This document shows, piece after piece, positions 16,731 through 61,040 of a stretch of 64,000 nucleotides of DNA. Location of the stretch: assembly GCA_026709225.1 (NCBI GenBank), contig JAPOTJ010000055.1:14826-78825 (forward strand), written 5' to 3'. Origin of the DNA: Gammaproteobacteria bacterium. Lineage in GTDB: Bacteria; Pseudomonadota; Gammaproteobacteria; Pseudomonadales; Azotimanducaceae. The position numbers and the translations under genes are program-made. The notes under the pieces are model-generated. The model did no database searches. It was not told where the DNA came from and saw only the letters and a list, made by a program, of their open reading frames with translations. Position 1 is the first letter of the stretch. Each line of letters opens with the position of its first letter.

Positions 16731-16748
16731 TTCGTCGCGGAACCGAAG

Positions 16749-20367: not shown

Positions 20368-20411
20368 GTGGTGCCGCCTCGCGTTGAACGCACTCGTGGC
20401 GTGAGTCCGAG

Positions 20412-21877: not shown

Positions 21878-21893
21878 TTGCAGGAGAAGCCAG

Positions 21894-23476: not shown

Positions 23477-23480
23477 CTCA

Positions 23481-24449: not shown

Positions 24450-24470
24450 GCAAAAGAGCAGGCAAAAGAC

Positions 24471-24929
24471 ATGTTCAAGCACACAGTTGAATCAGACGAG
24501 ATCGTGATTGATGCGCCGATCGAGCTTGCTTGGTCGATCTTGACGGACACCACCACCTACGGCGAATGGAATCCGTTCACGCCGAAGATCGAGACCGATT
24601 TTGCAATCGGTTCGGAGGTGCGCCTCGCAGTGCACTTCGGCAAACTCAAGCTCGATCAAATCGAGATCATGCGCGCATTCGAAGCCCCGATGCGCCTTGC
24701 TTGGGGCGCCGGCATGTACAAAATCGGCTCGTTCCCGCTTGTGACCGCGCTGCGCGAGCAATGCCTGACAAAGCTCGGTGACGCGCGTTGCAGCTATGTC
24801 AGCCGCGACCATCTCTCCGGGTTGATCACGCCGCTGGTGAGGATTTCCTTCGGCAAAGCCATGCGCGATGGCTTTAATGCCGCCGGAAACGGATTGAAGC
24901 GGTATGCGGAGGCGCGGCATTCTGGCTAA
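24471..24929 (+). CDS. SRPBCC-fold protein (polyketide cyclase/START-like)
   Basis: This 152-residue protein has the SRPBCC (Bet v 1/START-like) pattern. A first strand DEIVIDAPIELAWSILTDTTTYGEWNPF (quoted in part: EIVIDAPIELAWSIL) is followed by a curved sheet, and a long C-terminal helix carries MRDGFNAAGNGLKRY. Such proteins bind hydrophobic ligands in a deep pocket and may act as carriers or cyclases. It is the last gene of the P450-SDR-GST-SDR operon, in keeping with a hydrophobic substrate. Catalytic function unknown. Confidence 0.85.
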   Translation: MFKHTVESDEIVIDAPIELAWSILTDTTTYGEWNPFTPKIETDFAIGSEVRLAVHFGKLKLDQIEIMRAFEAPMRLAWGAGMYKIGSFPLVTALREQCLTKLGDARCSYVSRDHLSGLITPLVRISFGKAMRDGFNAAGNGLKRYAEARHSG

Positions 24930-25023
24930 GGTCGTGTTCACACGCCCTAAGGAAAGAGACGCATATTAAGTCGCTGATAGAATAACCGGCACACGGGAAA
25001 GCAACATGTCTTGAGAGGTGGAA

Positions 25024-33800: not shown

Positions 33801-34162
33801 CTTCGCGCCAAGGATTTGTTGCCGAAAAGTCTCAGCGCTTCGATGTTCGGACCGACGAACGTCAGTCCTTTATGCCGCACGATTTGCGCGAACTCGGCGT
33901 CCTCGGCAAGAAAGCCATAGCCGGGATGCACGGCGTCGCACGCTTCATTCAGGGCGGCTTGGGCAATCTGTTCGGCATCGAGATACGCGGGGACGCCCGC
34001 TTTCGAGATCTCAATGGCGTTGTCCATATGCTGGGTATGCAGTGCCGATGCATCGTCCTTGGAATAGATGCCGATGGTGGAGATGCCGAGGTTCGCCGCG
34101 GCGCGCGCGATGCGGATGGCGATTTCGCCGCGATTGGCGATAAGGAGTCGGTTGAAGGCCAT
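30815..34162 (-). CDS. Single-chain biotin-dependent acyl-CoA carboxylase (BC-BCCP-CT)
   Basis: All three parts of a biotin carboxylase are in one 1115-residue chain. Biotin carboxylase occupies about 1-450 (NRGEIAIRIARAA at the start, the ATP-binding glycine loop HGGGGRGMR, and EANARVQVEHTVTEEVTG). The biotin carrier lies at about 520-590, with the attachment lysine K544 in EAMKMEHE. The carboxyltransferase fills about 625-1110 (YTEGGGGRPGD, SGYCFAGNTALLG, MDCPGIMVGPE). This architecture matches the single-chain long-chain acyl-CoA carboxylases described in actinobacteria and some proteobacteria. Substrate length is not readable. It is convergent with the restriction cluster, and its 5' end lies next to tRNA-Gly. 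Confidence 0.92.
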   Translation of the reverse strand: MAFNRLLIANRGEIAIRIARAAANLGISTIGIYSKDDASALHTQHMDNAIEISKAGVPAYLDAEQIAQAALNEACDAVHPGYGFLAEDAEFAQIVRHKGLTFVGPNIEALRLFGNKSLARRQAESLGVPVLLGTSEDTSLAHCQAFFRSLPSGRSVMLKAAHGGGGRGMRRVDCEADLESAFARCRSEAKSAFGSEELFIEECVTHARHIEVQILGDAHRHIIHFGTRECSLQRRRQKLIEIAPAPYLDKQLEGEIIDAAMTLARSVDYSSLGTFEFLLDPSLPRGFAFIEANARVQVEHTVTEEVTGVDLVEAQLNVAAGLSLDELGLSQEITPQGHAIELRINAERYDENGEIKPSVGQITAYARPGGPGIRIDDCAEVGYAPNPNFDTLIAKLIASSRAPNIEALLGRAGRALDEFRIEGIDTNRALLAAIIKDEAFVRGEVHTEWLDERLASLLSSLPKLEPTESPAQLAGAQVSSDDPLAVFNFDRAQQISEVAHNSPSTEQEGEALYAPIQGTVLEVLVESGQHLATGTTLVLIEAMKMEHEIKAMRPGHVTSVAVRVGDVVAEGSPLVFLRQSDVETQAHDEDEQLDLDHIRDDLAEVFARHAFGLDDSRPEAVAKRRKTGQRTARENLADLCDEGTFVEYGPLVLAAQRRRRSIDWLRANTPGDGVVMGLGQVNGHLFESSNARCALLAYDYTVLAGTQGVKNHYKQDRLFHLAERHALPIVMYTEGGGGRPGDTDTVGGLGMDVFTFTQWSKLSGLVPMVGINSGYCFAGNTALLGCCDVVIATKKSNIGMGGPAMIEGGGLGIFSPREIGPMSMQVANGVVDVLADDEADATRLAKQYLSYFQGTIKEWQAPDQRRMRHLVPENRKRIYQVRDVINTLADEDSVLELREGFGVGIITALIRIEGRPLGLIANNAHHLSGAIDSDAADKAARFLQLCDAFDLPIVSLMDCPGIMVGPEVEKTALVRHCCRLFNTGANLTVPIFGIILRKAYGLGVQAMCGGSSMVPLFVAAWPTAEFAGMNIEGSIKLAYRSDFAAIEDAEARRAKFDEMVAEAYDRAKAVNAASFFGVDDVIDPATSRDWIVAGLNSLPPTPERHGKKRPNVDTW

Positions 34163-45724: not shown

Positions 45725-45744
45725 ACCTACCCAAACGGGCGGGT
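45725..45744. promoter_or_regulatory. Imperfect palindrome upstream of hyuA (putative LuxR-type operator)
   Basis: ACCTACCC and GGGCGGGT flank a four-base AAAC spacer. The core CTACCCAAACGGGCGG matches the perfect palindrome at 57877-57894 at 12 of 16 positions, including the spacer. It lies 58-77 bp before hyuA, which suits an activator site for the nearby LuxR/MalT-type regulator. Confidence 0.5.
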
Positions 45745-45801: not shown

Positions 45802-47874
45802 ATGAACAAGGTCTTCAGGGCCGCGAGCGATGTCGGTGGCACCTTCACGGATTTGGTGCTGTACAGCTCTGGGGCTGACGGTGGCGAGGTCAAGACCTCA
45901 AAGGTTGACACCACGCCCCCGGACTTTGAGCAGGGCGTGATGGCGAGCCTGAAGAAACTCGACGTTGATCCCGCTCAACTCGATTTCTTGGCGCACGGCT
46001 CGACCGTGGTCATCAACGCCATCACTGAGCGAAAAGGCGCGAAGACCGCGCTCATCACCACCAAGGGTTTTCGCGATGTGCTTGAGATCGCGCGCGGCAA
46101 TCGTCCCGACCTGTTCAATTTCAATTTCCGCAAACCAAAGCCGTTTGTGGAGCGTTATTTGCGGCTTGAGTTACCTGAGCGGACCGACTATCACGGCACT
46201 ATACAAACGCCGGTGGACCTCTCGCCGCTCGCGGCGCAGCTCGAATTCTTGAAAGAACAGGGCATCTCGGCGATTGCTGTGGCCTTCCTGCACGCCTACA
46301 TTAACCCCGCCAACGAAGCGCGCGCGGCGGCTGAGATTCGTAGACTCTGGCCGCAAGTTTCGGTGCTCGCTTCACACGAAGTCTCACGGGAATGGCGCGA
46401 GTACGAGCGCACCAACACGACCGTTCTATCGGCCTATGTGCATCCGAACGCCGAAGCGTACATTGATCGCTTGGAAAAGTGCCTAGCGTCCGAGGGGTTC
46501 CGCGGCAACCCGTTCATGATGCAGTCGAACGGCGGCATCACCACCTCCGACGCTGCCAAGCGCAATCCTATTTCCATGGTCGAATCGGGCCCGGCGAGCG
46601 GCATTTTCGCGGCGGCGTATCTCGGTGCGCTCATCGACCAGCCCAACCTCATCGTGCTCGATATCGGCGGCACCACCGCCAAATGCGCGCTGATCGCGGA
46701 CGGCCAAGTGCGCATCAGCACCGAATATCACATTGAAAAAACGCAGAAGTCGCCGGGCTATCCGATTCAAACGCCTGTCTCGGAGATCGTCGAGATCGGC
46801 ACCGGCGGGGGTTCCATCGCGTGGGTTGACGCAGGAGGCAAGCTGCATGTCGGTCCGCAGTCCGCCGGCGCCGATCCGGGCCCGGCGGCCTATGGGCGCG
46901 GCGGCGGGCACGTCACCACCACCGACGCCAACCTGGTGCTTGCGCGCATTGACCCGGCGAGCTTTGTTGGCGGCGAAGTCGAGCCTGACTGGGATTCGAT
47001 TGACCGCGCGTTTTCGGTCTTGCAAAAGCGCTTGTCGATGAGTCGCGAAGCGGTGGCGCACGGCGTTGTGCAGATCGCCAACGCCAATATGGTCAACGCG
47101 CTGCGCCTTGTCTCCACGAACAAGGGACACGACCCGCGTGACTTCGCGCTCATCGCCTTTGGCGGCGGCGGCGCGATGCACGCCCTGCCGCTCGCCGAAG
47201 AGCTTGGTGTTCGCAAGGTCATTGTGCCCGTCAATTCATCTGTGTTCTCAGCTTGGGGGATGCTGCTGACCGATCTGCGACGAGACTATGTGCAGACCAA
47301 TCCCATGCAGTTTGAATCTGACAATTTCCCGAAGATCTTGCAGGGCTTTGCCGACCTGCAGCGTGCGGCCATTGATGCCTATCGCGGAGACGGCGTTGCG
47401 CGCACCGATGAAGACGTGAGCTTCGAGTTTCACGCGGACATGCGCTACGAGGGACAGGAACACACAGTGAAGATTGCGGTTGCGACGGGCGCTAAGCTGG
47501 CACGAGAATCATTGATGGCTGCCACCGATGTCTTCCACGCAGCGCATGAACAGCGCTATACCTACCGGCTCGACAATGCTGTACAGCTCGTCAATTTCCA
47601 TTTGGTCGCGGTTGTGTCGGTCGACAAGCCGCCGCTCGCAACGCGTGCCGTCACCGGTGCGTCACTTGAGTCGGCGAGCCTTGGAACGCGGGTCGTCGAT
47701 TTCCATCCGCACCCGCGATGTGAAGCGCGCATCTTTGACGGCAGCAAGCTCGAAGCCGGTATGCGCATCAGCGGACCGGCGGTGATTCAAGAGCGAGCCG
47801 TCACCCTGCCGGTATGGTCCGGCAACAACGTCAGTGTTGACGAATTTGGAAATTATCATGTCGAACTTGCCTGA
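45802..47874 (+). CDS. Hydantoinase/oxoprolinase subunit A (HyuA family)
   Basis: This 690-residue protein of the hydantoinase A/5-oxoprolinase family is the ATP-binding subunit of an enzyme that opens cyclic amides or ureides with ATP hydrolysis. The N-terminal domain begins FRAASDVGGTFTDLVLY. The second ATPase-type motif is IVLDIGGTTAKCALI, preceded by MVESGPASGI, and GTGGGSIAWVD follows. The full length matches family members. It forms a two-gene unit with the HyuB gene 48 bp downstream. The true substrate (hydantoin, N-methylhydantoin, oxoproline or another cyclic ureide) is not determined by sequence; cluster context favours a cyclic ureide. Confidence 0.9.
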   Translation: MNKVFRAASDVGGTFTDLVLYSSGADGGEVKTSKVDTTPPDFEQGVMASLKKLDVDPAQLDFLAHGSTVVINAITERKGAKTALITTKGFRDVLEIARGNRPDLFNFNFRKPKPFVERYLRLELPERTDYHGTIQTPVDLSPLAAQLEFLKEQGISAIAVAFLHAYINPANEARAAAEIRRLWPQVSVLASHEVSREWREYERTNTTVLSAYVHPNAEAYIDRLEKCLASEGFRGNPFMMQSNGGITTSDAAKRNPISMVESGPASGIFAAAYLGALIDQPNLIVLDIGGTTAKCALIADGQVRISTEYHIEKTQKSPGYPIQTPVSEIVEIGTGGGSIAWVDAGGKLHVGPQSAGADPGPAAYGRGGGHVTTTDANLVLARIDPASFVGGEVEPDWDSIDRAFSVLQKRLSMSREAVAHGVVQIANANMVNALRLVSTNKGHDPRDFALIAFGGGGAMHALPLAEELGVRKVIVPVNSSVFSAWGMLLTDLRRDYVQTNPMQFESDNFPKILQGFADLQRAAIDAYRGDGVARTDEDVSFEFHADMRYEGQEHTVKIAVATGAKLARESLMAATDVFHAAHEQRYTYRLDNAVQLVNFHLVAVVSVDKPPLATRAVTGASLESASLGTRVVDFHPHPRCEARIFDGSKLEAGMRISGPAVIQERAVTLPVWSGNNVSVDEFGNYHVELA

Positions 47875-47922: not shown

Positions 47923-49593
47923 ATGAGCGCGAGTACATTTGATCTAGAGGTCATCAAGGACTGCATCGTCGCGGTCGGTGACGAGATGTTCGAGGCGGTG
48001 ATACGCACGAGCATGAGTCCGATCATTTACGAGACGACCGACTTTGCTGTCGGCGCCACCGATGCGCGTGGCAATCTGCTCGCGCAAGGCAATGGCGTGA
48101 CGGCATTCCTTGCCACGCTCGACACGGCTGTGCAGGACCTGCTCAAGCACTATCCGAATCCGGGTGAGATTGCGCCCGGCGATGCGTTCATCACCAATAG
48201 TCCCTACAGCGGTGGAGGCACACATCTCTCCGACGTGGTGATCATCGTGCCCGTGTTTCATCAGGACAGATTGATTGCGTTTACTGTCAACAAGGCGCAC
48301 TGGACCGAAGTGGGCGGCTCGCAGCCGGGCAGCGTATCGACCGAATCGACAGAGATCTACCAGGAAGGCTTGCATTTCCGCTTCTTGAAGCTCTATTCAA
48401 AGGGCGTGCTGAACGACAGTCTTGTACAGCTCATTCGAGACAATGTGCGGCTGCCCGATTCGACTATCGGCGATATGCATTCAGGTGTGGCGGCGGCGCG
48501 TGTGGGCGCTGCGAGAATTCAAGAACTTGCCGACAAGTACGGCACCAACCTTGTTTTGAGCGCGATGGAGGATCTGCTCGACTACGGGGAGCGCATGACG
48601 CTTGAGGAAATCCGCAAACTGCCGAAGGGCCGCTATGAGGCCGAGGATGTCGTGGAGGGTGATGGACTCGGCAACGGGCCGTTCATGGTGCGCTGCGCTG
48701 TGACCATTGGTGACGATGAGATCGTGGCTGACTTTACCGGCACGAGCGAGCAGGCCGCCGGTCCAATCAATTGCGCCTACACGGGGCTGATCACCGGCGC
48801 GCGGTGCCTGTTCAAGGCCATCACCAATACCGAGATTCCGGCGAACGGCGGCTGCTTTCGCGCGCTCAAAGTCATCTGTCCGCAAGGCACGGTCATCAGC
48901 GCCGTATCGCCAGCGCCAGTGTCGCTCTACTACGAGTCGCTCATCGCTGCCATCGACGTCATGTGGAAAGCGCTCGCCTCGGTGCTCCCGGACCGGCTCT
49001 CTGCCGGACATCAGCGCACTGTGGGCGCAAACTTTATTTCCGGAAATCATCCGGACACGGACGAACTGTTCGTGCTTGGTCAGCCGCTCGTTGGCGGATG
49101 GGGCGCATCAGCCGACCTCGACGGCGACAACGGCCAGTTCTGCTGCGGCAATGGCGAAACCTTCAATATACCTGTTGAGCTCTTCGAGACGCGCTACGGC
49201 CTGCAAGTCGAGCGCTACGCTTTCCACGATGAAGCCGGCGGCGAAGGCCAGTACCGCGGCGGGCGCGGTGTCGTCTTGGACTATCGCGTCATGTCGGATG
49301 AGGTGTTTTTGACCTATGCTGCGAGCCGCACATCGGTTCGTCCCTGGGCGATCAACAACGGCGTTGAAGGCACGCACAACTATGCCAAGGTGATCCGCTC
49401 GTCGGGAGACGAAGAACGCTATTCGATGTGCACCATGGTTCGCGCCGACAAGGGCGAGTGCATTCGCCTCGTGTCGGCCACAGGCGGCGGCTACGGCAGC
49501 CCGAACAAGCGGCGCGCAGAACTCATTGAGCAGGATATTCGCAACGGTTTCCTCTCCCCGCAGCGGGCAAAGGAAGTCTATGCCTATGGTTGA
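47923..49593 (+). CDS. Hydantoinase/oxoprolinase subunit B (HyuB family)
   Basis: This 556-residue HyuB-family protein is the catalytic partner of HyuA. Family landmarks are VGDEMFEAVIRTSMSPIIYE at the start, PGDAFITNSPYSGG, FTVNKAHWTEVGG, DIMHSG-like IGDMHSGVAAARVG, FTGTSEQAAGPINC and GEGQYRGGRG. The histidines and aspartates in these loops are typical of the metal-binding core. It follows hyuA after 48 bp with AAGGGAGG before the ATG. A second HyuB-family gene lies 4 kb downstream on the other strand, without its own HyuA. Confidence 0.9.
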   Translation: MSASTFDLEVIKDCIVAVGDEMFEAVIRTSMSPIIYETTDFAVGATDARGNLLAQGNGVTAFLATLDTAVQDLLKHYPNPGEIAPGDAFITNSPYSGGGTHLSDVVIIVPVFHQDRLIAFTVNKAHWTEVGGSQPGSVSTESTEIYQEGLHFRFLKLYSKGVLNDSLVQLIRDNVRLPDSTIGDMHSGVAAARVGAARIQELADKYGTNLVLSAMEDLLDYGERMTLEEIRKLPKGRYEAEDVVEGDGLGNGPFMVRCAVTIGDDEIVADFTGTSEQAAGPINCAYTGLITGARCLFKAITNTEIPANGGCFRALKVICPQGTVISAVSPAPVSLYYESLIAAIDVMWKALASVLPDRLSAGHQRTVGANFISGNHPDTDELFVLGQPLVGGWGASADLDGDNGQFCCGNGETFNIPVELFETRYGLQVERYAFHDEAGGEGQYRGGRGVVLDYRVMSDEVFLTYAASRTSVRPWAINNGVEGTHNYAKVIRSSGDEERYSMCTMVRADKGECIRLVSATGGGYGSPNKRRAELIEQDIRNGFLSPQRAKEVYAYG

Positions 49594-49685: not shown

Positions 49686-52427
49686 ATGAACGCGAGGACA
49701 AGCGCAAGCAATAGCGATACCGCCGCTCGGCGAGTGGTATGGGCGCTTCGTGGCAAGCTTCGTCCGCCGCTTCGATACCAGTCTGTGATTCGGCGGGTCG
49801 AACTGATCCGCTTGCTCGACGAAGTGCTGCACCATACGGCGTCGGTGCTGATTGCGCCTGCCGGATTCGGCAAAACGACCATTCTGACGCAGTGGCGCGA
49901 GCGCATGGTGAGCAAGGGCGTGAGGCTTGCCTGGCTGACCGTTGATAGTCAGGACGACGATGCCCATCGGCTCGTCTGCTATTGCATCTTCGCCCTTTCG
50001 GAAGCCGGCGTGGACTTGGGTCAGCTTGAGGGCTTCGCGCAGCAGGGACTGCACGATATTCCGCTCGAATCAGTGCTCGTTCGCATGCTTGATGCGATTG
50101 AAGAGACGAATCAAAAAGTGGCGCTGGTTCTTGATGATTATCACCGCATCGAGTCGCCGTCGATCAACGACCTATTCGACACGCTCATTGACAATGCGCC
50201 GGATAATTTTCATTTGATCATCAGTTCGAGGCAGCGGCCAGCCTTTGATCTTGAGCAGCATTTTGTCACCGGCAAGGGTATCCAGCTGGATTCGGAAACC
50301 TTGCGATTCTCCGATGCCGAGATGAACGAAGCGCTTCATGACATTGGCGACAGTGCCCTTGTGGACACGATCAAGCGCACCACCGAAGGCTGGCCGGTCG
50401 CTGTGCAACTTGCTCGGCTCGCTTACGCCGATGGCGCGTCGTTCCAGCAAGCGGCTGGCACCGGGCGCGAAGGCCACATTGCCAACTACTTCTCCGAACA
50501 GGTGGTGCGCGGCCTGGGTGATGAGCTGCAGGCGTTCTTGACGCGCACCGCGATACTTGATCAATTTAATATACAACTTGCGGGCGAGGTCTACGGTGGC
50601 AAGGATGCCGCGAAAGTCTTGGGGCAGCTGGGCGACCTTGGCGCATTGATCGTGCGGCTTGATGAGGCCGGAGAGTGGTACCGCTACCACCACTTGTTCG
50701 CTGACTTCTTGCTCAGTCGTCTCAAGGAGCGAGAACCCGAAGCCATTGCGTCACTGCACTTGCGGGCGTCGAAGTGGTTCGAGTCAGATGGCGATACGCA
50801 GCAAGCAGTGCGTCATGCGGTCGATGGGGAGGACTTGGAACGCGCGGCAGGACTCATCGAATCTGCAGGCGGCTGGGAGCTGATCCTGTTCGGTGGCATC
50901 GGCTATCTCAGAAATCTGTTGAACCTGATGCCGGCGATGAGCTTGGATGATTTTCCGCGCCTGCAAGTCGCCCAAGCTTATCTGTTGCTCAAAACTGGAA
51001 AGGTGTTTGAAGCACGCGCATGGCTCGACCGAGCGCTGCAGAACCCGATACTAACTGCCTACGACGGCGAACGCTCGGCCTGGTTCGAGAGAGATGTCCT
51101 CAATGTCGGCTGTTTGTTGCACAGCTACGAGGACGACGAACGGGCGCTGTGCCGCGCTGACTTGCCGGAGAAGATGGTGGTGCCCGGTAGCCACGCATCA
51201 GATGTGGTGACTCATGCGGTATTGGCCTGCTACCAGGTTGTCGGTGAACTCGCGGAAGGCAAGTTCGAAGCATCAAAGAACACCATTCGCAAGGCCATGC
51301 GATTCATGCGGCAAAGCAACTCGATTCTCGGCCTCAATTACTGCTACCTTCATTCTGCCGTCGCGCACTTCCATCAATGCCAAGTGAACAAGGCGCTCGC
51401 CGATGCCCAGGAAAGCAGCGCCATGGCGGCGGACAACTTTGGCAGCGACAGCGGACTGAAATCTCTCTCCGATGTGATCTTGGGCGTGTTGCTGTTTTGG
51501 CGCAATCAGATCAACGAGGAGGGCTGGCATCGATTTGAGATGGCGTTCGAGCATATCGCCAAATACGACGGCTGGTTCGACATTTATTCACTGGCACTTG
51601 AAGCATCCGTTGAGCGTGCGCTCCTGCAAGGGTGCCCTGAGGAAGCGAATCGCGCAATAGAGCGCGGTCGCAAGCTCGCGCAGGAAAAATCCATGGATCG
51701 ATTCGATGCGCACATCGATTCACTTGCGCTGACCATTGCCGTTGAATGCGAAGACTACGAGGTGCATCGCCAGTTGGCGCATGAGGTGTCGGCGCGGCAC
51801 GCCATCGGCGCGTGGCAAGATCGTCCCTTCGTGTGGCGAAACCATGTCTATCGGGCATTGGCGCTCGCAAGCAACTTCGCCTCGCAGGAGCCCTCGAGAA
51901 GCCTTCTGCTGCTGCGCGATGCCATTGAGTGCTGTCGCCGAATCGGCGCGCGCTTCTGGCTGATTCGTCTACGTGCGGCGCAGGCGACGCTGCTTGACCA
52001 GAACGGCGAGCGTCAGCGAAGCATTGATGCGCTCTCCAAAGCCCTCGAGCTGGCGCGCCCGGAAGAGCTGCTCACAGCGGTCGCCCGCCCAAGAGCGATT
52101 CTTGGCACGCTTCGACATGCGCAACGTCATTGGCGGAGGGAACCGGGCAACACGGCAACGCGCCGGTTCGCAGGCGAAGCCATCAACCTGCTGCAGCACT
52201 ATGCCAATATCGAGTCCGCGCACCTTGATGATCAGGTTTCCCTCAGCCCTCGCGAAATGGAAGTCCTCTGGGAGCTGTCTCTTGGGCGTTCAAACAAGCA
52301 AATCGCCCGCGCGCTCTACATGACCGAGCACACGGTGAAATATCATCTGAAGAACGTGTTTCGCAAGCTTTCGGTGAATCGACGCACCGAAGCGCTCAAG
52401 GTCGCGCATGAAGCAGGGCTCATTTAG
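49686..52427 (+). CDS. MalT/LAL-type LuxR-family transcriptional regulator
   Basis: This large ATP-dependent regulator has 913 residues. An N-terminal STAND-type NTPase begins with LRGKLRPPLRYQSVIRRVEL and Walker A IAPAGFGKTT (about 56-65), with LVLDDYHRIES as Walker B. A long TPR-like helical middle (about 350-820) precedes a C-terminal LuxR HTH (about 845-910) with LSPREMEVLWELSLGRSNKQ. MalT-like proteins oligomerise on binding an inducer and ATP and then activate catabolic operons. Set between hyuAB and the transport operons, it is the obvious local activator. The inducer is presumably the pathway substrate. Its 3' end overlaps the convergent MFS gene by 8 bp. Confidence 0.9.
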   Translation: MNARTSASNSDTAARRVVWALRGKLRPPLRYQSVIRRVELIRLLDEVLHHTASVLIAPAGFGKTTILTQWRERMVSKGVRLAWLTVDSQDDDAHRLVCYCIFALSEAGVDLGQLEGFAQQGLHDIPLESVLVRMLDAIEETNQKVALVLDDYHRIESPSINDLFDTLIDNAPDNFHLIISSRQRPAFDLEQHFVTGKGIQLDSETLRFSDAEMNEALHDIGDSALVDTIKRTTEGWPVAVQLARLAYADGASFQQAAGTGREGHIANYFSEQVVRGLGDELQAFLTRTAILDQFNIQLAGEVYGGKDAAKVLGQLGDLGALIVRLDEAGEWYRYHHLFADFLLSRLKEREPEAIASLHLRASKWFESDGDTQQAVRHAVDGEDLERAAGLIESAGGWELILFGGIGYLRNLLNLMPAMSLDDFPRLQVAQAYLLLKTGKVFEARAWLDRALQNPILTAYDGERSAWFERDVLNVGCLLHSYEDDERALCRADLPEKMVVPGSHASDVVTHAVLACYQVVGELAEGKFEASKNTIRKAMRFMRQSNSILGLNYCYLHSAVAHFHQCQVNKALADAQESSAMAADNFGSDSGLKSLSDVILGVLLFWRNQINEEGWHRFEMAFEHIAKYDGWFDIYSLALEASVERALLQGCPEEANRAIERGRKLAQEKSMDRFDAHIDSLALTIAVECEDYEVHRQLAHEVSARHAIGAWQDRPFVWRNHVYRALALASNFASQEPSRSLLLLRDAIECCRRIGARFWLIRLRAAQATLLDQNGERQRSIDALSKALELARPEELLTAVARPRAILGTLRHAQRHWRREPGNTATRRFAGEAINLLQHYANIESAHLDDQVSLSPREMEVLWELSLGRSNKQIARALYMTEHTVKYHLKNVFRKLSVNRRTEALKVAHEAGLI

Positions 52428-53769
52428 CGGCGCTCTTCCAAGTGTCCTTGGCGAAGTGCAGGCTCTTCTCGAAAGGCTTGATGCCAAGGAATAGTGCGCA
52501 CGCGGCAAGGGCGGAGGCGCCGAGTCCCACGGCCGCCATGGCGTAGCGCAGGTCTTCGGGGTGTCCAAACACCTGCTCGGTGAGCACCGCGACCAGCGAC
52601 GGGCCGATCCCGATGCCAATGAGGTTCACTGGAAAGAGATAGAGGAGGGCTGAGACCTGTCCGCGCAGCTCGTTCGGGGTGAATTGCTGCAGGGACGAGA
52701 CGGCGAGGCCCCAGGGCGCCGCAGAAAAGAACACCATCGGCACCATGACGAGCAGCGCAGCTTCGGCGGTCGCCATCAAAGGAAAGGCTGCTGCGGGAAG
52801 GAGCGTTCCAACAGCGCACCATGCAGCCGTGATCAATGCGCTCGACTCGTGGCCTCTGGCGCGAAACTTATCGGCGATCCATCCGCCTGTATAGATGCCG
52901 CCGGCGCCGAAGATCAGCAGTATCGTGCCGTAGGCGGTGCCCGCCTCAACGATAGTCCAGCCATAGGTGCGCGTGAGAAAGCTCGGCGTCCATAAGGCCA
53001 TGCCGTTGACCATGACGCCCAAGCAGCCGAATCCACAGGCATGGCAGGCGAATGTGCGCCAATTGGCAGCGACGAACTGCCGGAACTCGCGGAAAGGCAC
53101 TGGTTTGACGGTGTCGTTACCGCCGTGAAGTCGCCCTTTTCGGTAGGGTTCGCGTACTGTGAGCAGCAGGAGCAGCAGCAATGCGCCGGGCGCGGCGACG
53201 ACAAAGAATGCAACTTGCCAGGCATGGACATGCCCGATCACAGGCAGATGCAGATCTGGGCTGTCTCCGATAAGACTGAGTACGCCAGCGCCGACAAGAT
53301 AGGAAATCCCGAAGCCCATATAGGTGCCCATCACATAGGTGCTGATGCCGCGAGCAAGCTTGTCCTCCGGAAAGTAGTCGGTGATGATCGAGTAGGCGGC
53401 GGGATTGAGCGCCGCCTCACCGATGCCGACACCCATTCTTGCCAGGAAGAAACTCCAGAAGTTTTTGACCAGGCCGCAGGCTGCGGTCATCAGGCTCCAG
53501 AAAGCGACGCCGACGGCGACCACACCGACACGATGATGGCTGTCGGCATAGCGGCCGATCGGATAGCCCATGAAGGAATAGAAGACCGCGAAGGCAAATC
53601 CGTGCAGGAGACTGATTTGGAAGTCCGAAAAGCCCATGTCCGTTCTGATTGGGTCCACGAGCAGCGTCAATATGGAGCGGTCCACATACGAGAGGATGTA
53701 GGCGAGCATGAGCACGGCCACGACATACCAGTATTGGAAGGGTCTGTATGTGGGCGGCTCCCGCTTCAC
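52420..53769 (-). CDS. MFS transporter
   Basis: This 449-residue major facilitator has about 12 membrane helices. The first begins QYWYVVAVLMLAYILSYVDRSIL, and the conserved loop 2-3 motif appears as YPIGRYADSHHRVG. The N-terminal VDRSIL pattern resembles sugar-acid/organic-anion carriers of the ACS/spinster type. It is the last gene of the minus-strand unit TonB receptor-HyuB-MFS, with 9 bp to the HyuB stop. It probably moves the substrate or a product across the inner membrane. Confidence 0.9.
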   Translation of the reverse strand: MKREPPTYRPFQYWYVVAVLMLAYILSYVDRSILTLLVDPIRTDMGFSDFQISLLHGFAFAVFYSFMGYPIGRYADSHHRVGVVAVGVAFWSLMTAACGLVKNFWSFFLARMGVGIGEAALNPAAYSIITDYFPEDKLARGISTYVMGTYMGFGISYLVGAGVLSLIGDSPDLHLPVIGHVHAWQVAFFVVAAPGALLLLLLLTVREPYRKGRLHGGNDTVKPVPFREFRQFVAANWRTFACHACGFGCLGVMVNGMALWTPSFLTRTYGWTIVEAGTAYGTILLIFGAGGIYTGGWIADKFRARGHESSALITAAWCAVGTLLPAAAFPLMATAEAALLVMVPMVFFSAAPWGLAVSSLQQFTPNELRGQVSALLYLFPVNLIGIGIGPSLVAVLTEQVFGHPEDLRYAMAAVGLGASALAACALFLGIKPFEKSLHFAKDTWKSAAK

Positions 53770-53778: not shown

Positions 53779-55464
53779 CTAGGCGATGTGCGTGTCAAAC
53801 TCTGCGTCGTCGGCGCGCACACCGTAGCCGCGCGCTTCGTCAGACGTGATGTAGCCGTTGCGCAGATCGTCGTGGATATGTTCGAGCCTCCGACTCGAAG
53901 GCGCGCCGAGTCCGCCGCCGTTGCCGGTGAGAATACGCACCACGTCGCCGCGCGCGAGTTCAAGATTTGTCACTTCGCCGTAAGGCTCGCGCTCTCCTGT
54001 CGCGCGCAGGATTTCCAAGCGGTTGCCGGTGCCGCTTTCTCCGCCTAAGAGCCCCCACGGCGGGCTTTTGTGCCGCGTGTAGCCAGCCGTCACCCAGCCT
54101 CGCTCGCCAACGATGCGATACCTCAAATCAATGCCTTTGCCGCCGCGAAATTCTCCGGCGCCTGTTGGCTCCGGATTGAGCGCATAGCATTCGACATGAA
54201 TCGCATTGCGCCGCTCGTTGACTTCCACCGGGCAATTGAACGTGTCGCCGTGCGAGTATGAGAACTGCGCATTGTCACCGTCCCAGCCGAGTCCTGCGCC
54301 CCAGCCGCCGACCTCCGGCTCAACCAATGTGTGTTCTGCTCCCTTGTGATCGAGCGCGCGAATCACGGTCGAGCAAATTGAAGAGAAGTGGCCTGCGGGC
54401 ACGACGTCGGGCATGTGGGGTGCGAGCGTTTTGCACAGGAGATCCGTACAGCGGATCTTGTTTTCGTAATAGAGCCCAACCGCAGCAGGGCGAAGCGCGT
54501 GAAAGATTGAACCTGGGCGGGTCAGCAGCCTGAGCGGGCGAAAGCAGCCGGCATTCGCCCATGGTTCCGGCAGCGTGATGGCTTTGAACACGGCTTGGGC
54601 GCTGATTTCAGTTGCTTCGCGCGTGCCGTTGATCGGCCCCTTCTCCTGATCTGGATTGTCGCGAAGGTCAATGACCATTTCCCGGTCAGAGATATGAATG
54701 GTCGCGTTGATCATTCGGCCATCGTCAAGACGGTCATGGCCGTGAAACTCGCCGTGCGGAAGCGCTTTCAGGCCGCTCAAAGCCATCGCCTCGCCATAAT
54801 CCATGTAGCGCCTGACCGCTGCAATATAGGCGCGTGTCCCGTATTTCTCGCACAGCTCGATGACTCTTTTCTCGCCGAGGCGCAGCGCCGCGAGGCCAGC
54901 CCACAGATCGCCAAGCGCCTGCTCAGGCAAACGACTATTGGCTCGGATAATCGAAAACACGCTGCCGATCGGCTTGCCGCCGTCGAACAGCCTGACTGTT
55001 GGCAGCAGCAGCCCTTCTTGGAAGATCTCGGTGGCGCTCGGCGACATTGAGCCGGGCACCATGCCGCCGATATCGACGAGGTGCCCTTTGCTCGCGGTCC
55101 ACGCGACGATCTGGTTGTCAACAAACACCGGCTGGCAGAGCACCACATCGTTTGCGTGACTGACGCCTCCGTTGTAGGGGTCGTTTGAAATGAACACGTC
55201 GCCCGCTTGCAGCGGCGCCAGCTCCGGGCTGTTCAATACAGCTCGCACGGCGGGCGCGAGCATGCTCACGAAGCCGGGAATGCCAGCACCAGCGCTGGCA
55301 AGATTGCCTTCCCCGTCGGTGATGGCGACGCCGAAATCGAGCACTTCATAGATCACCGAGCTCATCGCGGCTTGCGCCATGGCGACGAACATCTCTCGCG
55401 AGGCCGCCGACAGCGCGCCCGCAATCACGTCTTGAGTAAAGGCGTCCTCTGTTTGCGCAGGCAA
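53779..55464 (-). CDS. Second HyuB-family protein
   Basis: This 561-residue hydantoinase B/oxoprolinase-family protein has the same landmarks as the one at 47.9 kb. These include AAMSSVIYEVLDFGVAITDG, AGDVFISNDPYNGGVSHAND, ASKGHLVDIGGMVPGS, GDLWAGLAALRLGEKR and GEFRGGKGIDLRYR. It is clearly divergent from the first copy and not a recent duplicate. There is no HyuA gene beside it, so it must share the HyuA at 45.8 kb or act alone. It sits between the TonB receptor gene and the MFS gene in one operon. Confidence 0.9.
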   Translation of the reverse strand: MPAQTEDAFTQDVIAGALSAASREMFVAMAQAAMSSVIYEVLDFGVAITDGEGNLASAGAGIPGFVSMLAPAVRAVLNSPELAPLQAGDVFISNDPYNGGVSHANDVVLCQPVFVDNQIVAWTASKGHLVDIGGMVPGSMSPSATEIFQEGLLLPTVRLFDGGKPIGSVFSIIRANSRLPEQALGDLWAGLAALRLGEKRVIELCEKYGTRAYIAAVRRYMDYGEAMALSGLKALPHGEFHGHDRLDDGRMINATIHISDREMVIDLRDNPDQEKGPINGTREATEISAQAVFKAITLPEPWANAGCFRPLRLLTRPGSIFHALRPAAVGLYYENKIRCTDLLCKTLAPHMPDVVPAGHFSSICSTVIRALDHKGAEHTLVEPEVGGWGAGLGWDGDNAQFSYSHGDTFNCPVEVNERRNAIHVECYALNPEPTGAGEFRGGKGIDLRYRIVGERGWVTAGYTRHKSPPWGLLGGESGTGNRLEILRATGEREPYGEVTNLELARGDVVRILTGNGGGLGAPSSRRLEHIHDDLRNGYITSDEARGYGVRADDAEFDTHIA

Positions 55465-55703: not shown

Positions 55704-57827
55704 CTAGTACTGCTTGCCACGGCGCTCGTAGTCCACACGGGCGAACCACGTCAGGCCATTGCCGACGGGGTATTCGATACGCGCACCGGCGTTAAAGGTG
55801 CTATCCGGCACGTAGGGCAGGTCGTTGCCGACCGTCGCTGGGCGCTCCTGATATGCGGTGATCTCGGCGTTGGTGAGGCCGTAGGCGGCGTAGATGTCCA
55901 AATTGTCAGTTGCGCGCCATGCGGCTTCGACTTCAAACCCATCAAGCTCGGCTTCATCGACATCTTCGAACACCTGCACGAACGCGAGGCCGTCGAAGGG
56001 GAAGTATTGCGTGTTGTCCACTTTGGAGGTGAACAGTGCGGCGTTGAGCCTGATCGAACCGTTGTCCCACTTTGCGCCGACTTCAAAGGTGTTGTTCTCT
56101 TCCTGTTCGATGGCTTCGTTCGCGGTCGTGCTGATGATGCCGACGCCTGGGTAGTTGAACTGGCCGGCGCGGTAGCCGATCCCCCAGCTTGCGTAGACGT
56201 TCAGCTCGTCTGTCACAAGGTAGCCGAGCGTCACCTTCGGCTGAAACTTGCTGAACTCCTTCTTGTTGGCATCGCTGCCCGGGCGAGTATTGGCAAGCAG
56301 TTCAGTCCAAGTGTCGTAGGCGCCGCAGTTGACGTTCGCGATGCCTCCGTCTTCACATGCCGCTGCGCCATATGGCTGGTTCACGCCGGACGCATCGGCC
56401 GTGGTGTAGACGCGACCCGCCGTGTTGTACGGGTTGACGTTCTGTTCGCGGGTCTCTTTGTCGTAGCGTCCGGCCAGGGTCAAGGTGAGGGGGTCTGTGA
56501 TCTGCCAATCGATGCTCCCGAACACCGCCCATGCGTAGCTATCCTCGAGAAACGCGAGGAAGTTCCCGGGCGCAACGCCGGTCGGATTGGTGCTGTCGTC
56601 GAACTCAGGCACGGTGACGGAGCGTTTGATGCCTTGGCCCTTGTCGATACCGGTCACGGTGGTGCGCTGCCGTTCCCATGACAGGTAATAGGCGCCGACT
56701 TGCCAGCCAATTCGACTGTCCGAATTCGATGTCAGGCGAAGTTCTTGACTCCAGCCTTCGACATCGACGTAGCTGTGCTGCGTGCCATCATCGAACCCGG
56801 AAAAATAGGGTGCCGCGTCGACGGTGGACGAGGCTTCGAGCTCATCGTAGGTGGTCACCGACTTGAAGTCGGCAAAGTCGAACGACTTGTCGATCTTGAC
56901 TGAGAACGAGAGCATATCGCGCGTGCCGCGATCAGGGTTGTTGGCTACGTAGGGGATGCCGGTCAAGTTGGCGCCTTCGCTCATCACCTGCTCCCCCGTC
57001 ACGCCGAGTTCGGGGATCGGCACGCCAAACAGCGCGATGCCCGGCCAATGGAAGCCGATCGCCTTGCCGTCGTGCTTGCTGACCTCGCCTTTGAAGTCAA
57101 TGGCAAGGGTTTCTTCAGGGGTGTAGGTGAGGCGACCTCGCAATGTGCGGTCATGATAGGGGTCCACATCCTCGTCAATCGTGATGTTGGTGAAATAGCC
57201 GTCTCGCTGCACCATGCGCCCCGAGAGCCGAAAGGCGAGGTTGTCGGCGAGCGGCCCGCTGTAGGAACCTTGGACGCCAACTTCGTCTTTCGTTCCATAG
57301 CTGAGTTTGATATGGCCTTCAGGCTCGAAGCTCGGCGCTTTGGTGGTGACGATAATGGCGCCGTTCGCTGCGTTGCGGCCATAGAGCGCGCCTTGCGGAC
57401 CTTTGACGACTTCAATCTGCTCGACGTCAAACACTTGACCGATGTACTGGCGCGGATTGACTGTCAGCACACCGTCCACGACGACCGCCACCGGCAATTC
57501 TCCGTTTCGCACCCGGCTTAAGCCCCGAACTGTCAGGAAAGACGTGCCGATTGTTTGTGATTCGGCGAGCGTGACATTTGGAATCAACTGAATGTAATCG
57601 GCGGTCTGCGTGACGCCAGCATCGTCAAGCTGCGCTTCGGTCATGGCATTGACGGTAATCGGCGCTTCTTGGATGCTCTCATCCATTTTTCTTGCGGTCA
57701 CGACAATCTCTTCGAGCGGGGATTGCTGAGCCGCGAGCTGCCCAGCCAACGCGACGCACAGGGCGACAAGGCTGTAGCAGACGTAGTGAAAGGCGCGAAA
57801 TGTTGCTCTCATGATACTGGCCCCCAT
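55704..57827 (-). CDS. TonB-dependent outer-membrane receptor, interrupted by an in-frame TAG
   Basis: This outer-membrane receptor imports a substrate using TonB energy. A signal peptide (about 1-34, core SLVALCVALAGQLAAQ) is followed by the TonB-box region PLEEIVVTARK, the plug domain (about 50-160, with GPQGALYGRNAANGAI) and the barrel. The read part has 707 residues and ends RRGKQY at a TAG. A further 65 in-frame codons downstream complete the barrel. The gene is therefore either a recent nonsense mutant or carries a sequencing error. It heads the operon with HyuB and MFS and is divergent from the NCS1 permease, so it likely brings in the cluster's substrate. Confidence 0.88.
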   Translation of the reverse strand: MGASIMRATFRAFHYVCYSLVALCVALAGQLAAQQSPLEEIVVTARKMDESIQEAPITVNAMTEAQLDDAGVTQTADYIQLIPNVTLAESQTIGTSFLTVRGLSRVRNGELPVAVVVDGVLTVNPRQYIGQVFDVEQIEVVKGPQGALYGRNAANGAIIVTTKAPSFEPEGHIKLSYGTKDEVGVQGSYSGPLADNLAFRLSGRMVQRDGYFTNITIDEDVDPYHDRTLRGRLTYTPEETLAIDFKGEVSKHDGKAIGFHWPGIALFGVPIPELGVTGEQVMSEGANLTGIPYVANNPDRGTRDMLSFSVKIDKSFDFADFKSVTTYDELEASSTVDAAPYFSGFDDGTQHSYVDVEGWSQELRLTSNSDSRIGWQVGAYYLSWERQRTTVTGIDKGQGIKRSVTVPEFDDSTNPTGVAPGNFLAFLEDSYAWAVFGSIDWQITDPLTLTLAGRYDKETREQNVNPYNTAGRVYTTADASGVNQPYGAAACEDGGIANVNCGAYDTWTELLANTRPGSDANKKEFSKFQPKVTLGYLVTDELNVYASWGIGYRAGQFNYPGVGIISTTANEAIEQEENNTFEVGAKWDNGSIRLNAALFTSKVDNTQYFPFDGLAFVQVFEDVDEAELDGFEVEAAWRATDNLDIYAAYGLTNAEITAYQERPATVGNDLPYVPDSTFNAGARIEYPVGNGLTWFARVDYERRGKQY

Positions 57828-57876: not shown

Positions 57877-57894
57877 ACTACTCAAACGAGTAGT
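57877..57894. promoter_or_regulatory. Perfect palindrome between the divergent transport operons
   Basis: ACTACTC-AAAC-GAGTAGT is a perfect 7-bp inverted repeat with a 4-base spacer, in the 120-bp region between the TonB receptor and permease genes. LuxR-type HTH proteins bind two-fold sites of about this size. A degenerate copy with the same spacer lies upstream of hyuA. It is the best candidate for the operator shared by both operons. Confidence 0.6.
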
Positions 57895-57947
57895 TTTCGC
57901 CATATTTCAGGAATTCGTCGGGTGAGTTGTTCTACAGTGCCAGCACG

Positions 57948-59237
57948 ATGACTCGCACCGTGTCACTTCAGTCCGACGATTTTGCGCTCAAAGCTGTGCC
58001 TCAGGAGGCGAGCGCGAGCGGGCTGCACCTTGCGCTGATCATTGTCGGTGGCACGATCGGCTTTGCCGTCTATGTGATCGCCGCGCAAATTGGCGGTTCG
58101 CTCGGATATGCGCAGGCAGCGGTTGCGTTCGCGGTGGGGAGCCTGATCCTCGGTGTCATGGGCGCTTGGACATCCTATGTGGGCGCAAAGTCGCGCTTTT
58201 CGACTTATCTGCTGACGCAATTCGCCTTTGGTCCTCGTGGTGCGAAGCTCGCCAATGTGGCGGTCGCCGTGTCGCTTGTCGGATGGTACGGGGTCATCAG
58301 CAACACCCTCGGCACGGCCTCGCAGCAGATGCTTCTCGAGGCATTGGCGATCGAGGTGTCGCCTTACTTGACCGTGAGCATTGCCAGTGCGCTGATGATT
58401 GCGATCACAGCGCTCGGATTCACCGGCATTGATCGGCTCGCGCTGTTCATGGTGCCGTTCATGCTCCTGTTCATGGTGCTCGCCGCGTGGCTCGCGATCA
58501 CAGGTGGCAACGGCGAGTTTTTGGACATCGAGCAGCGGTTTTCGATGCCGACAGCGATCTCGGCTGTCGTCGGCACCTACATCGCCGGCGTCATCATTCA
58601 GCCCGACTACAGTCGCTTCGCGGTCAACACAAGACATGCCATCTGGTCGGTGTTCATCGCGCTCGGCGTGGCATTTCCGCTGATTCAGTACCTCGCGGCG
58701 GTGCCGAGCATGGCGCTCGGCGAGCCGGACATCGTGCGCATGCTGGCCTTGATCGGCTTTCTTGTCCCAGGGTTTTTTCTGATGTTTCTTGGCGCTTGGG
58801 CCAGCAATGTGCTGTGCCTCTACTCTGCAGGGCTCTCCTTCGCAACGCTGCTCACGAGACTGAAGCGCGTCCGCCTGCCACATATTATTGTGGTCATAGG
58901 CATCTTCGGCACCGCGCTCGCATTTATTCCGGCGCAGACCTATATCGTTGATTACCTTGTTGTGCTGGGCGTCGCCATCCCCCCGATCGGCGCGATCTAC
59001 ATCATCGACGCCATGTTCATCCGCAGATTCTCGATGCAGATTGAATCTCTCGATGAAGAGCCATCAATCAGATGGACAGCGTTGATCGCCTGGCTTTTCG
59101 CGGCAGTCGCCGGGTATCTGACGAGCGAGACGAGTTTCCAGCTCGTGGGCATTGCGGCCATTGACTCGTTAATCGTGGCAAGCGTCCTGTTCTCGTTGCT
59201 TGAGGTTCGGCGTATTCGCGCTGCGCGCGCCGGATAA
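57948..59237 (+). CDS. NCS1-family purine/cytosine/hydantoin-type permease
   Basis: This 429-residue inner-membrane permease of the nucleobase-cation-symport-1 family has about 12 hydrophobic helices. The opening LHLALIIVGGTIGFAVYV, LILGVMGAWTSYVGAKSRFST and YGVISNTLGTA patterns resemble CodB-like members. The family includes Mhp1, the hydantoin permease, which fits the neighbouring hydantoinase-type genes. The ATG at 57948 is preferred over a TTG seven codons upstream. It is the first gene of the plus-strand unit permease-avidin-like-racemase. Confidence 0.88.
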   Translation: MTRTVSLQSDDFALKAVPQEASASGLHLALIIVGGTIGFAVYVIAAQIGGSLGYAQAAVAFAVGSLILGVMGAWTSYVGAKSRFSTYLLTQFAFGPRGAKLANVAVAVSLVGWYGVISNTLGTASQQMLLEALAIEVSPYLTVSIASALMIAITALGFTGIDRLALFMVPFMLLFMVLAAWLAITGGNGEFLDIEQRFSMPTAISAVVGTYIAGVIIQPDYSRFAVNTRHAIWSVFIALGVAFPLIQYLAAVPSMALGEPDIVRMLALIGFLVPGFFLMFLGAWASNVLCLYSAGLSFATLLTRLKRVRLPHIIVVIGIFGTALAFIPAQTYIVDYLVVLGVAIPPIGAIYIIDAMFIRRFSMQIESLDEEPSIRWTALIAWLFAAVAGYLTSETSFQLVGIAAIDSLIVASVLFSLLEVRRIRAARAG

Positions 59238-59251
59238 TCGGCCAACAGGTC

Positions 59252-60112
59252 GTGACCGCAACCGAATCGCCCATCCAAGGAACCTGGTACAACGCCTTTT
59301 GCTCTCGCTTGGACCTCTCGGTGAGCGAGACTGGTCGTATCAGCGGGTTCTACACGTCGCATACGGGCAGCACCGGCACGTCCGCGCTGCTTGGTCAACT
59401 TGACGTTGGAGCCGCTGTGACGGGGCAAGCGGGAACGCCATTCGCACTCGGTATTCAATGGCGCCTGATCAACGAAGATCAATCGAACGCCGACGGGAGT
59501 TGGCATTGGGTGTCTATGTTCGCTGGGCAATATCATCCGCAGCAGCGGGTGTCCAAGCCGGGGCAAACGCCATACACTCTCCCCGAGACGCTCGAGATAT
59601 TGAACCTTCTCATTGCCACTGCCACCCTCCCTGGGCTCGCCGACACTGCGCCGGTCACATGGCCGCAGACACTTGATTTTCATCGATCACCGCCTGAGTA
59701 CTACCAAGGCGCTCTGCCCGGCGAGCCGGTGCTCTATACGCCAACGGCTGCCGACAATGTGAGCGGTGCGTGGCTGAGTTCGGACGGTGAGCGACTCGAT
59801 CTCAGGTCCGACTTTGCGGCTGGTCAAGTGACTGGCAGCTATACCGATGCCGACGGCGTAGGCTTCGATGTCGTCGGTCTTGTCGATACGCTCGCGCCTG
59901 CGGTGGAACGCTCCGTGAGTTGGCAAGGGGTGACGCTCTCTCTGATGCAATCGAATTCTCGCGGCCGCAAGCAGTTGAAAGTGCTCGCTGGCGGCGTTGA
60001 TTATCGGGATACGCGCAACATGTCTCTTTGGTCGAGCGATCTGCGATCGACAAGTTGGACAGACAGATTCGTGCAGCAGAGCTTGCGAGCATCACACTTC
60101 ACCAGACGGTGA
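59252..60112 (+). CDS. Tandem avidin-like domain protein
   Basis: The first half of this 286-residue protein matches the avidin/streptavidin pattern. GTWYN (10-14) is followed by a serine at 18, GFYTSHTGS (32-40) with Tyr and Ser where streptavidin has Y43 and S45, then ALGIQW (65-70) and FAGQY (90-94). The second half repeats the start of the fold: SGAWLSSDGERLDL (171-184), GSYTDADGVG (195-204), and SVSW (221-224). Streptavidin's W108 and W120 have no clear counterparts. No signal peptide is visible, unlike most avidins. The GTG start is 14 bp after the permease stop. Biotin binding is not certain. The location suggests binding of a cyclic ureide, inferred from biotin's ureido ring. Confidence 0.7.
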   Translation: MTATESPIQGTWYNAFCSRLDLSVSETGRISGFYTSHTGSTGTSALLGQLDVGAAVTGQAGTPFALGIQWRLINEDQSNADGSWHWVSMFAGQYHPQQRVSKPGQTPYTLPETLEILNLLIATATLPGLADTAPVTWPQTLDFHRSPPEYYQGALPGEPVLYTPTAADNVSGAWLSSDGERLDLRSDFAAGQVTGSYTDADGVGFDVVGLVDTLAPAVERSVSWQGVTLSLMQSNSRGRKQLKVLAGGVDYRDTRNMSLWSSDLRSTSWTDRFVQQSLRASHFTRR

Positions 60113-60203
60113 ACGTTGACTTCCTGCTCGTTTGGGCAGGTGACATGCGCTGCTTCGCGTGGGTAGAGTCTCCCTCGCATGGCACGATCTTTGGGAGGCT
60201 CAT

Positions 60204-61040
60204 ATGTCGATGGATACCAGCATCAAAGTCTTGTACGTCAATCCTGTTGGGTTTCCGGCGTATGACCAGGTCTTCGCGGACATGGCAAGCAAGTACAAGT
60301 ACCCCAACACCGCTGTGGATGTCGCGTCGCTCAATCCGGCGAACGTGTCGCCGAAAATGACCGATTTGGAATTTCGCGCCTATGAGTCGCTGATCATCGC
60401 CGACACCGTCAAGGCGGCGCGTCAAGCATCGAAAGATGGGTACGACGCGATGATTATCGGTTGCTTCTACGACCCTGCCTTGGCTGATGCGCGTGAAATA
60501 TCAGGAGAGACTGTTGTAGTTGCGCCGTGTCAAGCCTCTACCACAGCGGCGCTCAATATCGCGAACAGCTTTGGGGTCATCATCGGCGAGCCGAAATGGG
60601 AAGATCAAATGCGTACTGCGGTGTATGAATATGGCTACCGGGATAAGTGCGCAGGGTTTCGGGACGTGGGGCTGCGCGTGGAGCAATTTCACGACGATCC
60701 ATCGAACACCAAGAAGTTGCTAGAAACCGCGGCGGTCGATGCTGTGCGCGTTGACAAGGCCGAGTCGATCATATTGGGCTGCACCTTGGAGGTTGGCTTC
60801 TTTGAAGACTTGCAGACCTATCTATTTGATCGATTCAAGGCATGGATACCAGTGATCGACAGCTCCATCGCTTCGCTCAAAGCCGCTGAGAATGCGGCGC
60901 TGCAGAAAAAGTTCGGCTGGAAGAATAGCCGCATGTGGGGCATGTCGGCACCGCCTGAAGATGAGTTAGCGAAGTTCGAGATCTTTCAGGATGAATATCA
61001 GTGGGGCAATATCATTCACGTCGCGGCTGACGGCAGTTAA
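60204..61040 (+). CDS. Asp/Glu/hydantoin racemase family protein
   Basis: This 278-residue protein of the Asp/Glu/hydantoin racemase superfamily interconverts stereoisomers by a two-base mechanism using paired cysteines. Both are visible: C87 in MIIGCFYDPALADARE and C193 in SIILGCTLEVGF. The opening IKVLYVNPVG is typical of hydantoin-racemase-type members. The ATG at 60204 is preceded by GGGAGG, whereas a longer frame upstream lacks support. It is the last gene of the permease operon. Racemisation of a 5-substituted hydantoin, or a similar ureide, before ring opening is the expected role. Confidence 0.88.
   Translation: MSMDTSIKVLYVNPVGFPAYDQVFADMASKYKYPNTAVDVASLNPANVSPKMTDLEFRAYESLIIADTVKAARQASKDGYDAMIIGCFYDPALADAREISGETVVVAPCQASTTAALNIANSFGVIIGEPKWEDQMRTAVYEYGYRDKCAGFRDVGLRVEQFHDDPSNTKKLLETAAVDAVRVDKAESIILGCTLEVGFFEDLQTYLFDRFKAWIPVIDSSIASLKAAENAALQKKFGWKNSRMWGMSAPPEDELAKFEIFQDEYQWGNIIHVAADGS

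Follow-up and report, generated by a model that had tools for sequence, protein, structure and literature searches.

The stretch of DNA analyzed here, hereafter the window (64,000 nucleotides, positions 14,826 to 78,825 of contig JAPOTJ010000055.1, assembly GCA_026709225.1, from a gammaproteobacterium of the Azotimanducaceae), carries at 59252-60112 a gene for an avidin-family protein that, as judged by structure prediction, is two complete avidin barrels in one chain. This gene lies in a cluster that also encodes HyuA and HyuB, the subunits of an ATP-dependent hydantoinase-type enzyme (HyuAB), and the same association recurs in most relatives of the protein. We consider it about an even call that the gene product is a cytoplasmic, single-chain, two-barrel avidin that binds a small cyclic amide or ureide in the service of HyuAB. 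The fuller account, in which a natural single-chain dimeric avidin has had biotin replaced by the ring compound of HyuAB, is controlled by a LuxR/MalT-type regulator acting on a common operator, and belongs to at least two avidin lineages that became joined to HyuAB, falls just short of an even chance.

Membership of the avidin family is indicated by a match to PF01382 over residues 8-97 (35.7 bits; gathering cut-off, 24), and the avidin landmarks reported in a preliminary description of this DNA were located at residues 10-14 (GTWYN), 32-40 (GFYTSHTGS) and 90-94 (FAGQY). A sequence search of PDB structures with the window avidin returned streptavidins as a weak match (E 4.5e-5). The AlphaFold2 model, built from an alignment of eleven relatives (predicted local distance difference test score [pLDDT] 78; predicted template modelling score [pTM] 0.80), contains eight strands in residues 10-144 and another eight in residues 172-285, and the top full-length PDB matches found by Foldseek were the engineered single-chain dimeric streptavidins 6S50 and 6S4Q, which ranked above every single streptavidin (6S50: E 8.9e-12 over 285 columns, TM-score 0.70 by query length). 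Both halves were thus predicted to form the eight-stranded antiparallel barrel of streptavidins, the fold test that had been proposed for this protein. The second repeat had been described as partial; the repeat itself stands, while the AlphaFold2 model and an alignment of the two barrels as profiles (hhalign E 3.7e-6, probability 87%) point to a complete second barrel. A further AlphaFold2 prediction, for a Pseudomonas poae fusion of the avidin with a pepsin-like domain, again gave two eight-strand barrels, with pLDDT below 50 for the pepsin-like domain (residues 1-384). As had been noted, inspection by eye reveals no signal peptide in the window avidin, whose first barrel begins nine residues after the N-terminus, and the protein is probably cytoplasmic.

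In streptavidin, the ureido oxygen of biotin is contacted by N23, S27 and Y43, the ureido N-H groups by S45 and D128, the sulphur by T90 and the carboxylate by N49 and S88, and W79, W92, W108 and W120 line the site. Comparison of 23 distinct tandem avidins, using streptavidin residue numbering, showed that N23, S27, Y43, S45, W79 and L110 are invariant in barrel 1 (23/23). In all 23 proteins, T90 is replaced by Ser, S88 by Trp and D128 by Leu, and N49 is altered as well. The position of W92 is occupied by Leu, Met, Phe or Tyr and that of W108 by His or Asn (with a register uncertain by one residue, the adjacent column also being without Trp), and W120 lies opposite a variable residue, with no Trp counterpart in the window avidin. 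The claim that two biotin-contact tryptophans are missing is therefore borne out, W92, W108 and W120 all being without a counterpart and only W79 being kept. The head-group contacts of streptavidin are retained in the tandem avidins and its full biotin-contact set is not, a pattern that suggests a ligand with a carbonyl-bearing ring and without the tail of biotin. The barrel 2 counterparts of N23, S27, Y43 and S45 are not conserved among the 23 proteins; therefore, the avidin fold alone does not require these residues.

The link to hydantoinase-type genes, for which a neighbourhood survey had been proposed, was found in 19 of the 23 distinct tandem avidins, which adjoin HyuA/HyuB in Pseudomonas, sphingomonads and the window. 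A protein search identified one annotated relative, encoded on a Novosphingobium plasmid beside genes for LuxR, TonB, racemase, HyuA, HyuB and an M24 peptidase. When contigs of 84,980 species were scanned with a three-sequence alignment as the query, 11 loci were found (eight in Pseudomonas and three in sphingomonads, L015 being the same contig as L010), all of which carry both HyuA and HyuB; a racemase was called in every one except L023. The same scan with the window protein alone gave no match, and a six-sequence alignment was too diverse to be used as a query. The gene order in Pseudomonas is LuxR, HyuA, HyuB, porin-like protein, racemase, MFS (major facilitator superfamily) and avidin, and in most of these clusters the avidin is fused behind a pepsin-like domain. 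Among 249 Pseudomonas genomes, 11 have a tandem avidin, which in nine lies inside a HyuAB cluster. The reverse search of these genomes found ten HyuA proteins; nine of them (76-100% identity) are each encoded in one run of genes with the avidin, and the tenth (53% identity) has no avidin, giving a hypergeometric P of about 6e-15 for co-occurrence, with no correction for relatedness. Thirteen further avidin loci from the same phylum, examined over 7-20 kb, lacked HyuA, HyuB and racemase alike, and a link to HyuAB that is general to avidins is thereby ruled out. Of the two outcomes that the preliminary description had named as refuting its proposal, a fold other than the avidin barrel and the lack of a conserved hydantoinase link, neither was observed.

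Moreover, a palindrome, CTACYC-N4-GRGTAG, recurs upstream of the HyuA, TonB/NCS1 and Novosphingobium avidin genes, in the last case directly upstream. In the window, the sites starting at 45727, 57878 and 60124 (Table 1) are the only intergenic matches with two or fewer mismatches. The linked loci contain 17 exact copies, compared to 0.0 expected from first-order Markov resampling, and 24 matches with no more than one mismatch at a spacing of 4 compared to 0-5 at other spacings, although the consensus was derived from these same, mutually related loci and the counts are not independent. The palindrome was not found at the four tandem-avidin loci that lack HyuAB or at the 13 control avidin loci. 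The shared operator sequence is a prediction indicating that the avidin belongs to the HyuAB regulon, and we infer that the LuxR/MalT-type protein could bind the palindrome because its gene adjoins the predicted sites.

The avidin tree joins the window protein in a pair with the unlinked protein of G184, distant from the group of Pseudomonas and sphingomonad proteins, whereas in the HyuA tree the window groups with the sphingomonads; long branches make both placements of the window uncertain. The conflict between the two trees suggests that avidin and HyuAB may have been joined, or exchanged, more than once.

The position of the avidin gene between genes for an NCS1 permease and an Asp/Glu/hydantoin racemase was confirmed, and the cluster was found to extend further than first described, with HyuA, HyuB1, a LuxR/MalT-type regulator, an MFS transporter, HyuB2 and a TonB receptor in addition (Table 1). 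The NCS1, avidin and racemase genes share one strand, with a gap of 14 bases between the first two. ATP motifs and a metal-ligand tetrad (D-H-D-H) have been described for caprolactamase (PMC8453981), and by eye the ATP and metal motifs are present in the window HyuA, HyuB1 and HyuB2, as expected of a cyclic amidase. The nearest curated model for HyuA is the caprolactamase alpha subunit (CapA); however, HyuA (504 bits), HyuB1 (243 bits) and HyuB2 (218 bits) score far below the NCBIfam caprolactamase cut-off of 1000 bits. As these scores are about half (CapA) and a quarter (CapB) of the cut-off, the substrate of HyuAB is probably another ring compound. Both catalytic Cys motifs of the racemase (GCF and GCT) are present in 17 of 17 sequences, and its nearest solved structures are OpaE and allantoin and hydantoin racemases. 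The permease had been described as NCS1, the family of the Mhp1 hydantoin carrier; while it does belong to NCS1, its nearest solved structure is CodB rather than Mhp1 (7QOA, E 2.6e-29). The aromatic sandwich of CodB is formed by W108 and F204 (PMC9379551), of which the window protein keeps the former and has Tyr for the latter, consistent with the family. It does not appear to be CodB itself, as Q105 aligns with Leu and the score is 179 bits against an equivalog cut-off of 326.

Table 1. Genes of the avidin-HyuAB cluster and predicted operators, in window coordinates
Feature	Coordinates	Strand	Remarks
HyuA (ATP-dependent hydantoinase/lactamase subunit)	45802..47874	+	PF01968, 303 bits
HyuB1	47923..49593	+	PF02538, 536.6 bits
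LuxR/MalT-type regulator	49686..52427	+	913 aa; PF00196; MalT model 301 bits, below cut-off
MFS transporter	52420..53769	-	PF07690, 148 bits
HyuB2 (hydantoinase B/oxoprolinase)	53779..55464	-	PF02538, 472 bits; D-H-D-H tetrad by eye
TonB-dependent receptor	55704..57827	-	divergent from NCS1; PF00593, PF07715
NCS1-family permease	57927..59237	+	PF02133, 92 bits; start TTG 57927 or ATG 57948
Tandem avidin-family protein	59252..60112	+	286 aa; GTG start; barrel 1 ~10-144, barrel 2 ~172-285
Asp/Glu/hydantoin racemase	60159..61040	+	PF01177, 80.5 bits; likely start ATG 60204 or 60210
Predicted operator CTACCC-AAAC-GGGCGG	45727..45742		upstream of HyuA; 2 mismatches
Predicted operator CTACTC-AAAC-GAGTAG	57878..57893		between TonB and NCS1; exact consensus match; 0.0 expected in window
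Predicted operator CTGCTC-GTTT-GGGCAG	60124..60139		between avidin and racemase; 2 mismatches

In the mechanism that we favor, the TonB receptor and the NCS1 permease (in Pseudomonas, the porin-like protein and the MFS transporter) would import the compound, the racemase would interconvert its stereoisomers and HyuA/HyuB would open the ring with ATP, the genes being activated by the LuxR/MalT-type regulator through the CTACYC-N4-GRGTAG sites. Barrel 1 may hold the carbonyl oxygen of the substrate or an intermediate with the former biotin-ureido triad (N14, S18 and Y34 of the window protein), together with S36 and W70, in a site whose tail channel would be reshaped by W86 and by the absence of Trp at the W92 and W108 positions. 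Barrel 2, having lost the tested contacts, could serve as a built-in dimer partner. The avidin might thus capture the ring compound, buffer it or hand it over directly, and either buffer, carrier or enzyme is conceivable as its role.

Several observations weigh against this explanation. Four tandem avidins, those of L037 and L040 (2 of the 11 in Pseudomonas), G298 and G184, have no HyuAB nearby, and the altered pocket is common to all four, which makes it a trait of the clade and implies that the pocket change is not specific to the hydantoinase context. Conversely, related HyuAB clusters without an avidin exist in L054 (M24-NCS1-outer-membrane protein-HyuA-HyuB), L064 (NCS1-cupin-HyuA-HyuB-dipeptidase-like), L065 (ABC-HyuA-HyuB-racemase-M24), and L067 and L068 (LuxR-TonB-HyuA-HyuB-NCS1, with an NCS1 49% identical to that of the window); an avidin in every related cluster is thus ruled out, and these clusters imply that the avidin is an accessory to a core of uptake and ring opening. 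The replacement of D128 by Leu represents the loss of one ureide N-H contact. No carbamoylase or N-carbamoyl amino acid amidohydrolase (hyuC) scored over its cut-off in the window genome, which is 95% complete. Finally, the fusion of avidin to a pepsin-like domain in Pseudomonas is not explained by a pure carrier role. A search of the window genome for a pepsin-like gene gave no match, although its positive control was also silent and absence is not proven.

The preliminary description had proposed a cytoplasmic binder of a cyclic ureide. The fold, the changed site and the link to HyuAB support such a binder, but not specifically a ureide, because D128 is Leu and the dipeptidase-type neighbours of sister clusters (M24 and M19) fit a lactam or a cyclic dipeptide equally well. 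The ligand could accordingly be a cyclic dipeptide (diketopiperazine) or a peptide-derived lactam that is opened by HyuAB and finished by dipeptidases, by the same mechanism as above except for the ureide. M24 genes are found in the clusters of Novosphingobium EMRT-2, Sphingomonas and some Pseudomonas, related clusters also hold a dipeptidase-like gene, dipeptide-type ABC genes and a pepsin-like domain, loss of D128 is compatible with a lactam, and the racemase subfamily acts on diketopiperazine-like rings (OpaE and NozR; PMC12661438). Neither an M24 nor a dipeptidase gene is seen in the cluster of the window, though. NCS1 carriers, moreover, are known as transporters of nucleobases, hydantoins and allantoin and not of cyclic dipeptides, and on balance we regard this ligand as unlikely. 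Degradation of biotin, with HyuAB opening the ureido ring of biotin or of a side-chain-shortened biotin while the avidin holds the head group, would agree with the retention of head-group contacts and the loss of side-chain contacts, as well as with an enzyme, a racemase and a permease that all suit a cyclic ureide. It is improbable in view of the Leu that replaces the ureido N-H contact D128 in 23/23 proteins, the lack of recurrent beta-oxidation genes in the clusters of relatives, and the presence of racemase, M24 and aldolase-type genes for which this pathway has no evident use.

Sequestration of biotin for defence or competition, the role proposed for bacterial avidins by Laitinen et al. 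(2021), would make the protein an ordinary biotin-binding avidin that adjoins HyuAB by coincidence. Such a protein would also retain the family fold and head-group contacts, and extended avidins were judged potent biotin binders in the same paper (PMC8033661). Such a role is nonetheless difficult to reconcile with the loss of the W92, W108 and W120 counterparts, the changes of S88 to Trp and D128 to Leu in 23/23 proteins, and a HyuAB linkage and common operator far above chance; in addition, no export signal is visible, and a cytosolic trap would compete with the host's own biotin-dependent carboxylase (30815-34162). We consider it quite improbable. A similarly low probability is given to the avidin barrel being an enzyme itself, for example one that isomerizes or hydrolyzes the ring compound with the carbonyl triad as an oxyanion-type site. 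Conservation of the polar pocket residues N, S, Y, S, T, S and Q and of W86 in 23/23 proteins, and the peptidase-like domain fused to the avidin in Pseudomonas, could be accommodated by such an enzyme, but no catalytic acid or nucleophile is obvious besides Ser and, at position 118 in window numbering, a His that is replaced by Asn in the window protein itself, and we know of no enzyme with an avidin fold.

Hydantoin-utilization (hyu) clusters contain ATP-dependent hyuA/hyuB, a racemase and an Mhp1-type carrier. The window likewise joins HyuA, HyuB, a hydantoin-type racemase and an NCS1 carrier; it differs in the lack of hyuC noted above and in the addition of the avidin, the LuxR/MalT-type regulator and the TonB receptor. 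Caprolactamase CapAB and HyuAB-type hydantoinases/oxoprolinases (PMC8453981) share with the window the HyuA and HyuB domains, the ATP motifs and the metal tetrad, and are set apart by the low caprolactamase scores of the window proteins. Extended-clade bacterial avidins, with an avidin barrel and a C-terminal extension of about 150 residues, were described in 2021 (Laitinen et al. 2021, PMC8033661), including fusions to a pepsin-like aspartic peptidase in Pseudomonas veronii and P. fluorescens; one of the loci analyzed here, L019, is from a P. veronii strain. In that paper, no domain was found in the extension, and the proteins were seen as likely biotin binders with a defence role favored. 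Residues 145-286 of the window avidin correspond to this extension in position and length, and in the window protein it is a second, degenerate avidin barrel encoded within a HyuAB regulon. The statement in the preliminary description that no such system was known thus holds in part; the clade has been known since 2021, but the main text of PMC8033661 mentions neither hydantoin nor an operon and contains neither the second barrel nor the HyuAB regulon. Compared to the engineered streptavidin dimers (6S50 and 6S4Q), which also have two barrels per chain, the window protein is natural, is 18% identical, has a ligand-type site in barrel 1 only and shows changed side-chain contacts. No paper linking avidin to a hydantoinase or hydantoin racemase, or biotin catabolism to a hydantoinase, was found in a search of an open-access library.

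The purpose of bacterial avidins is an old question, and the usual answer is that rivals or grazers are starved of biotin. An avidin clade co-regulated with cyclic-amide catabolism would provide a testable answer as to why bacteria make avidins, in that some may serve metabolism and not biotin sequestration. Natural two-barrel, single-chain avidins with one active-type site also represent a scaffold that is otherwise engineered by hand, and could yield binders for ring compounds besides biotin.

Additional observations concern the relatives of the window avidin. The Pseudomonas peptidase-avidin fusions outside any HyuAB cluster (L037, G771, 8363-10336; L040, G726, 8480-10390) each have an outer-membrane protein gene in their vicinity, along with other genes that look catabolic; these surroundings may indicate that they bind other ligands. 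At about 40% identity, the closest protein to the window avidin is a peptidase-avidin fusion with an apparent signal peptide (L009, G184, 8100-10358), encoded upstream of rimP-nusA-like genes with no HyuAB in the 20 kb read. The conserved porin-like protein of the Pseudomonas clusters (L013, 5631-6521, and equivalents; about 296 aa, apparent signal peptide) is always encoded directly upstream of the racemase and has no Pfam or NCBIfam match.

Elsewhere in the window, a single-chain biotin-dependent carboxylase (30815-34162, minus strand) indicates that the host needs free biotin, and a 1777-aa protein with Mrr-type nuclease and type III restriction helicase domains (25018-30351) is probably encoded by a defence gene. 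A run of genes at 15510-24929, encoding an acyl-CoA dehydrogenase, an alpha/beta hydrolase, two P450s and two short-chain dehydrogenases, is likely a lipid or terpenoid degradation cluster separate from the avidin cluster.

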